Shown piece after piece: positions 29,607 to 33,184 of a DNA stretch of 64,000 nucleotides. The notes below the pieces were generated by a model, which had not been told where the DNA came from, searched no databases, and was given only the letters and a program-made list of their open reading frames with translations. The stretch is from assembly GCF_001027545.1 (NCBI RefSeq), contig NZ_CP009498.1, positions 1,426,001-1,490,000 of the forward strand. The letters run 5' to 3'. The stretch's first letter is position 1; each line of letters opens with the position of its first letter. The stretch comes from Endomicrobium proavitum (GTDB taxonomy: Bacteria; Elusimicrobiota; Endomicrobiia; Endomicrobiales; Endomicrobiaceae). Position numbers and translations under genes: made by a program.

Positions 29607-30335
29607 TTACGACCATAATGTATAGGCCGCCGCAATTTCCTTGCCGTCGGAATCTCTAATTAAAAGATGCCAAAACGAACTTTTTGAACTTGCGTACGTT
29701 TTAATAATTATTTTTTCGTCCGCCAAAACTTCCGCTTTGAAATTTATAACAATATCGGAAAGAGTCTGATTTCTTCTAATTTCCCGCGGCACCCCTTCAA
29801 ACGCCCAAGCTGTAAAATGAACGTTGTTTACATGACCGTTCATATCTATATCTTCAAGGCGCGAAACCATGGCTATTTCGGTTAAAGGCAAAGCGTTTTC
29901 AAAATGCGGCTCTTTCAGTTCGGTTTCTTTTAACGCCATTACACGGTTGCCGCTTCCGTCTAAAATTTGTTTAGGCGTGCGCACTATTTTGCGCGTTTCT
30001 AAATCTAACACCAGCCACCAGCTTACCGCCGTTGCTATTTCGTTGCCTTGTTCGTCGTAAAACACAAAATCTCTGCGGCTTTTTATTTTATCGCTTAATA
30101 CATGCCACGTTTTTACGTTTACCGTTTGCAGCCCTTCTATAACGCCGGTAATTTTAAATTGTATTTTTATAAGCACCCAAGTTACGCCGTGTTTTGAAAG
30201 GTCTTCCCAGCCGGCGGATATGCTATGAGCATCCAACGCAGCCGCCTGTTGCGCGTAATTCTGCAAAACCCACACCGGCACGCGGTTGTTAAACCCTGTT
30301 TCCCCGTATCTAACTTTGAATGATTGCGTTAACAT
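29607..30335 (-). CDS. Acyl-ACP thioesterase
   Basis: 242 residues, double hot-dog fold of the FatA/FatB family (PF01643 type): N-terminal FKVRYGETGFNNRVPVWVLQNYAQQAA, WVLIKIQFKI, and second-half DMNGHVNNVHFTAWAFEGVP, which holds the conserved Asn and His. It frees fatty acids from ACP in the cytoplasm. Two acyl-ACP synthetase fusions lie 500 bases away on the other strand, so release and re-attachment of acyl chains may be linked. A 9-bp inverted repeat lies upstream. Confidence 0.88.
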   Translation of the reverse strand: MLTQSFKVRYGETGFNNRVPVWVLQNYAQQAAALDAHSISAGWEDLSKHGVTWVLIKIQFKITGVIEGLQTVNVKTWHVLSDKIKSRRDFVFYDEQGNEIATAVSWWLVLDLETRKIVRTPKQILDGSGNRVMALKETELKEPHFENALPLTEIAMVSRLEDIDMNGHVNNVHFTAWAFEGVPREIRRNQTLSDIVINFKAEVLADEKIIIKTYASSKSSFWHLLIRDSDGKEIAAAYTLWS

Positions 30336-30362
30336 AAATTTACTCCGAAGTTAATAATAAAG

Positions 30363-30386
30363 TTAATCTAACAAATATTAGATTAA
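30363..30386. promoter_or_regulatory. Inverted repeat upstream of the thioesterase gene
   Basis: TTAATCTAA (30363-30371) and TTAGATTAA (30378-30386) form a perfect 9-bp inverted repeat with a 6-base centre, 28 bases upstream of the minus-strand thioesterase start. It looks like an operator for a dimeric repressor. The regulator is unknown. Confidence 0.45.
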
Positions 30387-30406
30387 CAGTCAAATGAAAT
30401 AATGGT

Positions 30407-30434
30407 TTGAATTTTTTTCAAAAATATGTATAAT
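30407..30434 (+). promoter_or_regulatory. Promoter of tRNA-Asn
   Basis: TTGAAT (30407-30412), 16-base spacer, TATAAT (30429-30434), 36 bases before the tRNA. Confidence 0.6.
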
Positions 30435-30470
30435 TAATTCCGCAATACTTAATACAAATAAATTCTTAAT

Positions 30471-30542
30471 TCCGCGATAGCTCAATGGTGGAGCAATCGG
30501 CTGTTAACCGATCGGTTGCTGGTTCGAGTCCAGCTCGCGGAG
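30471..30542 (+). tRNA. tRNA-Asn (anticodon GTT)
   Basis: 72 bases. Acceptor TCCGCGA/TCGCGGA, D-stem GCTC/GAGC, anticodon stem ATCGG/CCGAT around CTGTTAA (anticodon GTT), T-stem GCTGG/CCAGC with TTCGAGT loop, discriminator G. It is the intact copy next to a rearranged partial duplicate. Confidence 0.95.
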
Positions 30543-30723
30543 TTTTTTCTTTGCCCAAAAAAAAGAGCTTGCTCCACCATTGAGCGCGCTCAATGGGCGG
30601 CAGTGCGACGAATAAGGAGCACGAGTCTGCCGCGGGCGCGAGATGTGAGCGCCCCGGAGGAGCAATCGGCTGTTAACCGATCGGTTGCTGGTTCGAGTCC
30701 AGCTCGCGGAGTTTTTTCTTTGC
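30543..30723 (+). repeat. Rearranged partial tRNA-Asn copy with inserted repeat element
   Basis: Bases 30490-30554 (tRNA-Asn from the D-arm onward plus 12 downstream bases) are repeated exactly at 30659-30723. The 104 bases between include 30569-30585, an exact inverted copy of tRNA bases 30480-30496. They also include a perfect 20-bp palindrome at 30577-30596 and an element at 30603-30660 that shares its two ends with 2597-2705. That element folds as GCGGCA/TGCCGC enclosing GTGC/GCAC, then GGGCGC/GCGCCC. The second tRNA copy lacks the 5' half of the D-stem, so it is most likely a tRNA pseudogene. Confidence 0.85.
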
Positions 30724-30756
30724 TTAAATTTTAGTTTACCGGCGCATGTTTTATTG

Positions 30757-30786
30757 TTGTCAGATTAGATGCATTTTAGGTATAAT
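30757..30786 (+). promoter_or_regulatory. Promoter for the acyltransferase/acyl-ACP synthetase pair
   Basis: TTGTCA (30757-30762), 18-base spacer, TATAAT (30781-30786). The predicted start is only about seven bases before the ATG at 30800, so the transcript would have almost no leader. Confidence 0.6.
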
Positions 30787-30799
30787 ATAATCTGCGCCT

Positions 30800-33184
30800 A
30801 TGAAGAAAATAAAAAGGCTTATCGTAACATTAATTTTCCCTAAAACTGTCGCGTTTATAGCGATTGTTTTGGGGTTTCTTATTATTATGACGCTGTTGGA
30901 GTTTATTCCTGTAATTTTAGGTTGGGCTCTTACCGTTGTTTTTATAAGTATTATTGCGGCATTTCTTGCATGCATAATTTTTAATCCTATATTTGTAATG
31001 CATGCCGTTATCTGGTGTTTAAATCACACTGTTTATAAAATAAAAACCGTTGATCATCAAAATATTCCGCTTACGGGCGGAGGGCTTTTAGTTTCAAATT
31101 CTGTTTCTTACATAGACCATATAATAATTTTTTCCGCTATCAAAAGACCCGTTAAATTTTTTGTAGGCAAAGAATTTCGCGAAAACCCTTTCTTGCAACC
31201 TTTTTTAGATTCCACAAACAGCATTCCGATAGATTATAATCCTAAAACCATAGGAACGGCTTTAAACCAAGCGCGCCGCTCCATACAAAACGGCGAACTT
31301 GTCTGTATTTTTGCCGAGGGAGAACTTACAAAAACCGGACATATGCTTCCTTTCAAAAGAGGCTTTGAATTTATAATGAGAGATTTGTCCGCTCCGATAA
31401 TTCCTATTCATTTGGATAGAATTTGGGGCTCAACTTTTTCTTTTGTAAACGGAAAGTTGAAATGGCGTTTTCCTAAAGTAATTCCGTATCCTATAACCGT
31501 AAGCGTCGGAAAGCCTATGCCGGCTTCGGCGCAAGCGTATCAAGTGCGCCTTGCCGTGCAGGAACTTTCCGCCGACGCGTTTAAACTAAGAGGCGACAGC
31601 CAGAAAAAACTTCACATAGGTTTTATCAACGAAATGCGCAGGCATCCGTTTAAATTTTTATACGGAGATTTAAACTCCAAATTAAGTTTTATAAAAGTTT
31701 TTACGGCAGCCGCGGCAATGTCTCGCCGTTTGGGAACCTCTAAAGAAAACGGGGAAATGATAGGCGTAATTTTGCCTACTACCATTGCCGGATGCATAGT
31801 AAATATAGCCGCTTTGTTTGCGGGAAAAATTCCCGTTAATTTAAATTTTACTTCTTCAAAAGAAACTTTAGAATCTTGCGTGGCGCAGTGCGGCATTAAG
31901 CAGATAGTAACTTCGCGCGCTTTTGTTGATAAATTAAATTTTCACGACCTTGACCGCATGTCTGTTTTTGTTGAAGACATAAGCAAAGAAATTAAAACGA
32001 CTGAAAAATTTAAAATTCTTGTTTCCGCCCTTATTTTTCCCGCAAAAATTTTAATTAAAAAATACGTTAAAGGCGATACAAAAAATATAGATGATTTGTT
32101 AACGGTTGTTTTTTCAAGCGGCTCCGAAGGCGAACCTAAAGGAATAATGTTAACCCACCAAAATATAGTTTCAAACATAGAAGCCGCTTACAAAATAGTT
32201 AATTTGTCCGGCGCAGATGTTGTCGCCGGAATTTTGCCTTTATTTCACTCTTTCGGCTACACTGTTTCCGTATGGCTTTGCGCTTATTACGGAATAGGCG
32301 CCGCTTTGCACACAAGCTCCATGGAAGCGCAAAAAATAGGCGAGCTTGTTGAAAAATATAAATGCACGCTTTTAGTTTCTACGCCGACATTTTTAAACTC
32401 TTACGCGCGCAAATGCACTAAAGAGCAGTTTGCAAGTTTAAGAATTGTTGTAGCCGGCGCTGAAAAATTACAAAAATCGGTTTCAAAAACTTTCTATGAA
32501 AAATTTCAAAAAGAAATTTACGAAGGTTACGGCGCAACGGAACTTTCTCCTATAGTTTCGGTAGGCACTCCAAGTTACATAGACCTTAAAACAAAAAAAA
32601 TACATAACGGCAATAAATTCGGAACCGTAGGGCACCCTATGCCGGGGGTAGCCGCAAAAATTGTAGATCCGGAAACGTTTGAGCTTATGCCTTTCGGACG
32701 AGAGGGAATGCTTTTAATAAAAGGGCCTAACGTTATGAAGGGTTATTTAAACGATCCCGTAAAAACCGCGCAGGTTATCAAAGACGGCTGGTATATTACC
32801 GGCGACATAGCCGCAATAGACGAGGAAGGTTTTATAGCGATTACCGACAGATTGTCGCGCTTTAGCAAAATCGGCGGAGAGATGGTTCCTCAGATAAAAG
32901 TTGAAGAAGCAATTCATGAAGCTTCCGGTATGCAAGAATCTTTTGCCGTTGTAACTTCCGTTCCCGATGAGAAAAAAGGCGAGCGTCTTGCGGTGCTTTA
33001 CACCGGACAAAGAGATATAGCCGCAATAATTGCGAAGTTAAAAGAAAAGAAAATTCCGAATCTCTGGGTGCCAAAACAAGAAAATTTTTATCAGGTGGAA
33101 AGTTTTCCGCTTTTGGGCAGCGGGAAAGTAGATATAAAACAACTTAAAAAAACCGCGCTTGAGTTTTCCGGCGCTAAAAAATAG
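30800..33184 (+). CDS. Acyltransferase / acyl-ACP synthetase fusion (Aas-like), copy 1
   Basis: 794 residues. Two N-terminal membrane segments (about 10-65), a PlsC-like domain (about 80-250) and an AMP-binding acyl ligase (about 300-790). Ligase motifs are intact: FSSGSEGEPKGIMLTH, GYGATELSPIVS, WYITGD...TDRLSRFSKIGGEMV and GSGKVD with the A10 Lys. In the acyltransferase the expected HX4D catalytic pair reads S101-VSYI-D106, so the catalytic His is missing; FAEGELTKTG and NSIPID are otherwise placed normally. Aas activates fatty acids on ACP and re-acylates lysophospholipid; here the ligase should work but the transferase may not. The next gene is a full-length paralogue. Confidence 0.88.
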   Translation: MKKIKRLIVTLIFPKTVAFIAIVLGFLIIMTLLEFIPVILGWALTVVFISIIAAFLACIIFNPIFVMHAVIWCLNHTVYKIKTVDHQNIPLTGGGLLVSNSVSYIDHIIIFSAIKRPVKFFVGKEFRENPFLQPFLDSTNSIPIDYNPKTIGTALNQARRSIQNGELVCIFAEGELTKTGHMLPFKRGFEFIMRDLSAPIIPIHLDRIWGSTFSFVNGKLKWRFPKVIPYPITVSVGKPMPASAQAYQVRLAVQELSADAFKLRGDSQKKLHIGFINEMRRHPFKFLYGDLNSKLSFIKVFTAAAAMSRRLGTSKENGEMIGVILPTTIAGCIVNIAALFAGKIPVNLNFTSSKETLESCVAQCGIKQIVTSRAFVDKLNFHDLDRMSVFVEDISKEIKTTEKFKILVSALIFPAKILIKKYVKGDTKNIDDLLTVVFSSGSEGEPKGIMLTHQNIVSNIEAAYKIVNLSGADVVAGILPLFHSFGYTVSVWLCAYYGIGAALHTSSMEAQKIGELVEKYKCTLLVSTPTFLNSYARKCTKEQFASLRIVVAGAEKLQKSVSKTFYEKFQKEIYEGYGATELSPIVSVGTPSYIDLKTKKIHNGNKFGTVGHPMPGVAAKIVDPETFELMPFGREGMLLIKGPNVMKGYLNDPVKTAQVIKDGWYITGDIAAIDEEGFIAITDRLSRFSKIGGEMVPQIKVEEAIHEASGMQESFAVVTSVPDEKKGERLAVLYTGQRDIAAIIAKLKEKKIPNLWVPKQENFYQVESFPLLGSGKVDIKQLKKTALEFSGAKK

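Follow-up and report, generated by a model that had tools for sequence, protein, structure and literature searches.

The rearranged tRNA-Asn locus of Endomicrobium proavitum, the sole isolate of its family (PMC11257099), was probably produced when a mobile DNA repeat, non-autonomous and structure-forming, inserted once. In the Elusimicrobiota this repeat often enters tRNA genes, mostly after G18-G19, and template switching would have made the copies of tRNA sequence that surround it. The repeat core defines a family that is a new variant among small structured mobile repeats. The locus lies in the window, by which we mean the whole stretch of 64,000 nucleotides analysed here, of a genome that forms a single contig of 1,588,979 bp and is congeneric with Endomicrobium MAGs.

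The intact tRNA-Asn(GTT) occupies positions 30471-30542 of the forward strand (ARAGORN; Rfam RF00005, 69.4 bits), with the G18-G19 of its D-loop at 30487-30488, and a 321-nt query matched no second tRNA-Asn in the genome. A preliminary description of the locus had reported an exact duplication of the last two-thirds of this gene plus its trailer, and indeed the 65 bp at 30490-30554 recur at 30659-30723 on the same strand with 65/65 identity. The second copy is a tRNA-Asn 3′ fragment and not a functional tRNA; the partial tRNA scored 26.5 bits in Rfam, under the 29-bit cut-off. An inverted 17-base piece of the tRNA and a perfect 20-bp palindrome, also described between the two copies, were both confirmed. 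The inverted piece, at 30569-30585 on the reverse strand, is the exact reverse complement of the D-arm at 30480-30496 (17/17) and runs uninterrupted through the insertion point, and the window contains no other inverted D-arm stretch of at least 11 nt. The palindrome (CCATTGAGCGCGCTCAATGG) spans 30577-30596.

These pieces can be placed in a single arrangement. When the tRNA D-arm is written as X-T-Y (GCTCAATGG-T-GGAGCAA), the order of the locus is full tRNA, trailer, Y′-A-X′, GC, X, core, Y and remaining tRNA, where Y′-A-X′ is the complement of the uninterrupted target and X-core-Y is the interrupted strand. The palindrome thus reads X′-GC-X (hairpin X), and its X, at 30588-30596 on the forward strand, is a direct copy of the D-arm with the conserved GG at its end. 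The core itself (30597-30658, about 62 nt, forward strand) comprises two hairpins defined by covariance model R1 and by covariation, namely hairpin A at 30597-30633, GCGGCA-GTGC-(GACGAATAAGGA)-GCAC-gagtc-TGCCGC, and hairpin B at 30634-30654, GGGCGC-(GAGATGTGA)-GCGCCC, followed by CGGA at 30655-30658, which junction comparison identified as the 3′ end of the inserted core. Since TTGCTCC at 30569-30575 is complementary to the GGAGCAA of Y (30659-30665, forward strand), all of the odd pieces at the locus can be joined in one four-way junction, and such a junction, with Y′/Y as the outer stem and X′/X, A and B as hairpins, was predicted by both DNA and RNA folding. The fold of the 103-nt segment at 30566-30668 beat 200 of 200 shuffles, with z-scores of -3.3 (DNA) and -4.2 (RNA). 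The 104 nt between the 65-bp repeats contain no integrase-type ORF, and a search of 30300-30900 returned only tRNA above the Rfam threshold.

In three congeners (G001, G002 and G003) we found one uninterrupted tRNA-Asn each, beside the orthologous acyl-ligase gene, and the insertion is therefore lineage-specific. Together with the exact identity of the 65-bp copies, this suggests a recent event, as had been proposed from the sequence of the locus. At 29607-33184 of the window, the orientation of tRNA-Asn relative to the acyl-ligase gene is opposite to that in the three congeners, and its divergent neighbour is a thioesterase-like gene that in the congeners is located elsewhere, which indicates that the locus has been rearranged. 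That the structure is an assembly artefact is unlikely, since the same architecture is found at other tRNAs in independent assemblies.

The structured repeat between the two 65-bp copies had been noticed at 2.6 kb as well, and our covariance model recovered both occurrences, at 30595-30657 (84 bits) and at 2589-2673 on the forward strand (37.9 bits), where the copy is intergenic and has a larger hairpin B. A 20-mer from hairpin A, with up to 3 mismatches allowed, gave 19 matches in the source genome (G000) and none with a reversed control, and of 295 Elusimicrobiota genomes searched with the covariance model, 35 contained the core. Among the matches listed for an exact core 18-mer, we also found Nitrospira (Nitrospirota; many genomes), Omnitrophota, Ratteibacteria and a few others; some of the single matches are probably due to chance. 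A phage origin of the core was considered and rejected, as viral contigs did not contain the exact core 18-mer. We found no description of the core element in the literature covered, that is, in papers outside subscription access. In Nitrospira loci L085-L204, many imperfect palindromes of about 200-250 bp were seen around the core, with ends that are typically GCAGGATGCTCAAAAAG / CTTTTTCAGCATCCTGC, and a degenerate, A-rich version of the element was present in a tandem array at L026 (G000:C1:366576-369595).

In the aligned cores, hairpin A consists of two helices and hairpin B of one; the loops GACGAATAAGGA and GAG..GTGAG are almost invariant, and the stems vary in pairs. Across 110 distinct copies, 96.5% of the cells were paired, compared to 75.8% after shuffling and at most 56% in slid alignments, and the stem changes included 307 double changes, compared to 75 in shuffles, and 27 single-side changes. 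One-sided cells were rare, amounting to 30 G-T and 11 A-C among 1757, and the excess of G-T over A-C indicates that the sense strand is the folding strand. We infer that hairpins maintained at the DNA level, with folding of the sense strand, account for this pattern better than an RNA that drifts slowly. REP sequences have a conserved foot of the GTAG/GGAG type at the base of the hairpin; the motif GGAG is frequently found 3′ of the core here, but in the tRNA-Asn copies this GGAG is target sequence.

The same element was found at many other tRNA genes. A tRNA fragment adjoins 37 of the 110 distinct core copies, compared to 14 of 600 positions drawn at random from the same loci, although these 37 do not represent as many independent insertions, since descent or conversion relates the copies found in one genus. 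The tRNA-abutting cores come from 19 Elusimicrobiota genomes and involve several tRNA types, and their presence within duplicated tRNA pieces fits the earlier proposal of an insertion mechanism that copies tRNA sequence. Most insertions lie directly 3′ of the D-loop G18-G19 (Asn, Ser and Ala; in Gln L048 and L061 at tRNA position 10); further sites are the following GG in some Ser, Glu and Gln genes, position 41 in Glu and positions 46-47 in Ala (44-47 region), and there are also insertions in Arg (L039 and L252). The Omnitrophota and Ratteibacteria copies lie in the T-loop, in tRNA genes for Trp, Ser, Met and Leu. The core has the orientation of the tRNA strand in nearly all of the insertions, with one in Thr (L223) being antisense, and an intact tRNA of the same kind adjoins it in every case where the contig extends far enough. 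Many core copies are intergenic without a tRNA, and the tRNAs used vary between species. Present in copied tRNA pieces of many relatives, the repeat is therefore a recurrent tRNA-invading element and no one-off accident. In L055, the intact tRNA-Asn next to the insertion, that of G040 (reverse complement, about 1620-2260), is itself apparently split in its anticodon loop by a group I-like intron, recognised by eye, whose HNH-type frame contains an in-frame stop.

The tRNA insertions have two layouts. Class L comprises the window Asn copy, Ala L218, L251 and L076, and Glu L041/L229; here the duplication covers the 3′ part of the tRNA, and a hairpin made of target sequence lies 5′ of the core. 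In class R, which forms the majority, the duplication covers the 5′ part, the third hairpin lies 3′ of the core and the tRNA 3′-end duplication is absent. The tRNA-Asn copies of class R (L217, L055 and L071) have the order X-core-GGAG-loop-CTCC-X′, and they fold with A, B and the third hairpin on one outer stem, so that the class L and class R forms of tRNA-Asn are circular permutations of one four-way junction. An inverted copy extending over the site scored 10.5-11 in Ala L076, Ala L218 and Asn L071 and 8 in Glu L229; scores of at least 9 with the site spanned were found in 3 of 34 copies and in 0 of 340 controls, the window being outside this test. The inverted copy is split into two short blocks in most Ser copies and is weak in the Ala and Gln copies of class R, so that our claim to the full pattern is limited to class L and Asn. 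The outer arms vary by site, being target-derived in the class L and Asn copies, and a generic outer-arm test on all copies, which is too blunt for non-tRNA sites, gave only a modest excess. The length of the direct duplications varies between copies from about 20 to 67 bp and is 65 bp in the window. In L210 (1047-1640), an intact tRNA-Ala is preceded by a tandem array of three units, each with a promoter, the 5′ part of tRNA-Ala and the core, and the middle unit carries several compensated stem changes; in L076, the tandem repeat of the unit terminates inside hairpin A.

In the mechanism that we favour, the core would enter one DNA strand between X, with its terminal GG, and Y. Because the core forms a strong hairpin block within a single tRNA gene that is needed, replication would then switch template, the hairpin core in the target being the obvious trigger. 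Replication would copy the uninterrupted complement (Y′X′) first and then return to the core-bearing strand; if the switch back occurred upstream, one event would leave an intact tRNA together with an inverted piece of the D-arm, a palindrome close to perfect and a partial, interrupted copy, and selection would allow only products with an intact tRNA to survive. Inverted copies and compensated stems are published products of template switching, and a four-point switch yields a duplication and an inverted piece in one event (PMC8794818), which would explain why both are found at tRNA-Asn. In the window, a Y′X′ copy followed by an upstream restart at X reproduces the inversion and the duplication, and L076, L218 and L229 are analogous. 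The tandem units of L210 and the broken repeat of L076 also suit a replication mechanism. More tentatively, and with clear doubt on our part, the family might represent a new class of mobile element, in which a two-hairpin module inserts single-stranded into the tRNA D-loop after G18-G19 and a programmed strand switch rebuilds the intact tRNA and copies the target inverted as outer arms; if this is true, each insertion would bear site-specific ends.

Several other explanations need to be weighed against an inserting repeat. In a pure replication accident, a template switch would have made the palindrome and the duplication, and a repeat attracted by the hairpin would have landed later in the non-essential copy. 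A four-point switch does produce just this combination of a duplication and an inverted piece (PMC8794818), and the core at non-tRNA sites such as L065 and L231 is flanked by long inverted arms; however, two independent events would be needed per tRNA, yet the placement of the core is constant, after GG and on the same strand, and we regard this account as unlikely. It had also been suggested that the locus is a transcript-templated product, which would require that a core-carrying tRNA precursor was reverse transcribed with snap-back and reintegrated. The sense orientation of nearly all tRNA insertions and the excess of G-T over A-C pairs agree with such an origin, as does the form of the product, snap-back products being typical of cDNA. 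Nevertheless, the RVT_1 reverse transcriptase had no match in G000-G003, and some duplications include upstream DNA, with a promoter-like TATAAT in L210 and 20 nt in L048, which argues against a transcript template because promoter DNA is not part of the transcript. The suggestion is thus unsupported and a transcript origin very improbable.

We consider it equally improbable that the covarying hairpins are kept because they act beside tRNA genes as a regulatory or tRNA-like RNA. Covariation is strong, the loops are conserved across phyla and a tRNA promoter lies 5′ of the class R copies, but such a role is difficult to reconcile with the many intergenic copies that have no tRNA, with the differences between species in the tRNAs used, and with a G-U share of just 30 of 1757 cells; furthermore, Rfam searches of seven loci at E≤1 gave nothing relevant, only tRNA and chance matches. 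Integration into a tRNA gene classically leaves an intact tRNA together with a repeat of its 3′ part, and the 65-bp repeats could accordingly be read as attL and attR of a tRNA-Asn island whose body has been deleted. The layout in the window is of this kind, and the Omnitrophota and Ratteibacteria copies also have tRNA 3′-end duplications. In most relatives, however, the duplication involves the tRNA 5′ part, at sites in the D-loop, integration would not be expected to leave an inverted D-arm copy, and the DNA in between belongs to a repeat that is found without any island. In addition, G000 has only two Phage_integrase genes (frames of 295 and 331 aa), which are probably XerC and XerD. A relic of an integrative element is the least probable of these accounts.

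Clustering of the ORFs around the copies gave no recurrent gene family or transposase, and the large cluster consisted of reading frames through Nitrospira elements. The element resembles the RAYT-mobilised REP/BIME/REPIN sequences, as these too are small, dispersed, non-coding hairpin repeats that are non-autonomous and partly intergenic, but it differs in its two-hairpin core with target-derived arms and in its targeting of tRNA genes, and the Y1 transposase (PF01797) had 0 matches in G000 and G002, both of which are rich in the element. RAYT was therefore rejected as the sole driver; across 41 genomes, the presence of the element and of Y1 was associated (p=0.005), an association confounded by phylogeny. 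GIY-YIG homing nucleases were likewise rejected, since their genome-level association (p=0.004) is similar to that of Y1, with genome size and phylogeny as confounders, and the genes inspected were not beside cores except in L068. We also observed stand-alone GIY-YIG genes directly downstream of or between tRNA gene copies at L306 (Ser; G000:C1:1374000-1375900), L307 (Ser; G000:C1:1186500-1190600), L320 (Pro) and L068 (Ser), where the ORF lies between the core-bearing tRNA-Ser fragment and the intact tRNA-Ser.

Like bacterial MITEs and other small mobile repeats (reviewed in PMC2229807), the element is short and non-autonomous and has inverted arms; unlike in MITEs, its arms are target sequence, and the core has neither fixed terminal inverted repeats nor a fixed-length target duplication, and no recurrent linked transposase. 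It resembles template-switch hairpins (PMC8794818), in which a piece in direct orientation is likewise joined to an inverted copy of itself and perfect stems with compensated changes arise in a single step, although here there is a specific core at a preferred tRNA position. As in tRNA-gene integrative elements, the target is a tRNA, an intact tRNA is restored and a partial tRNA remains, but the core has no island or linked integrase, and 5′ duplications and an inverted target copy are seen. Rickettsia palindromic elements are palindromic repeats that invade genes and are known mainly from in-frame insertions into protein genes; compared by description, they are alike in being gene-invading palindromes and differ in their protein-gene targets. 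The combination of tRNA targeting and target-derived inverted flanks matches no family tested.

tRNA genes are favoured landing sites of mobile DNA, which normally uses integrases to enter them. In the present case, a tiny element without a linked enzyme repeatedly enters essential tRNA genes of several tRNA families, leaving an intact tRNA and building its flanks from the target. These loci provide a natural series of insertions in which hairpin-induced template switching can be tested as a route by which repeats spread, and the series bears on the DNA-level origin of covarying stems and on how bacteria tolerate damage to single-copy tRNA genes.
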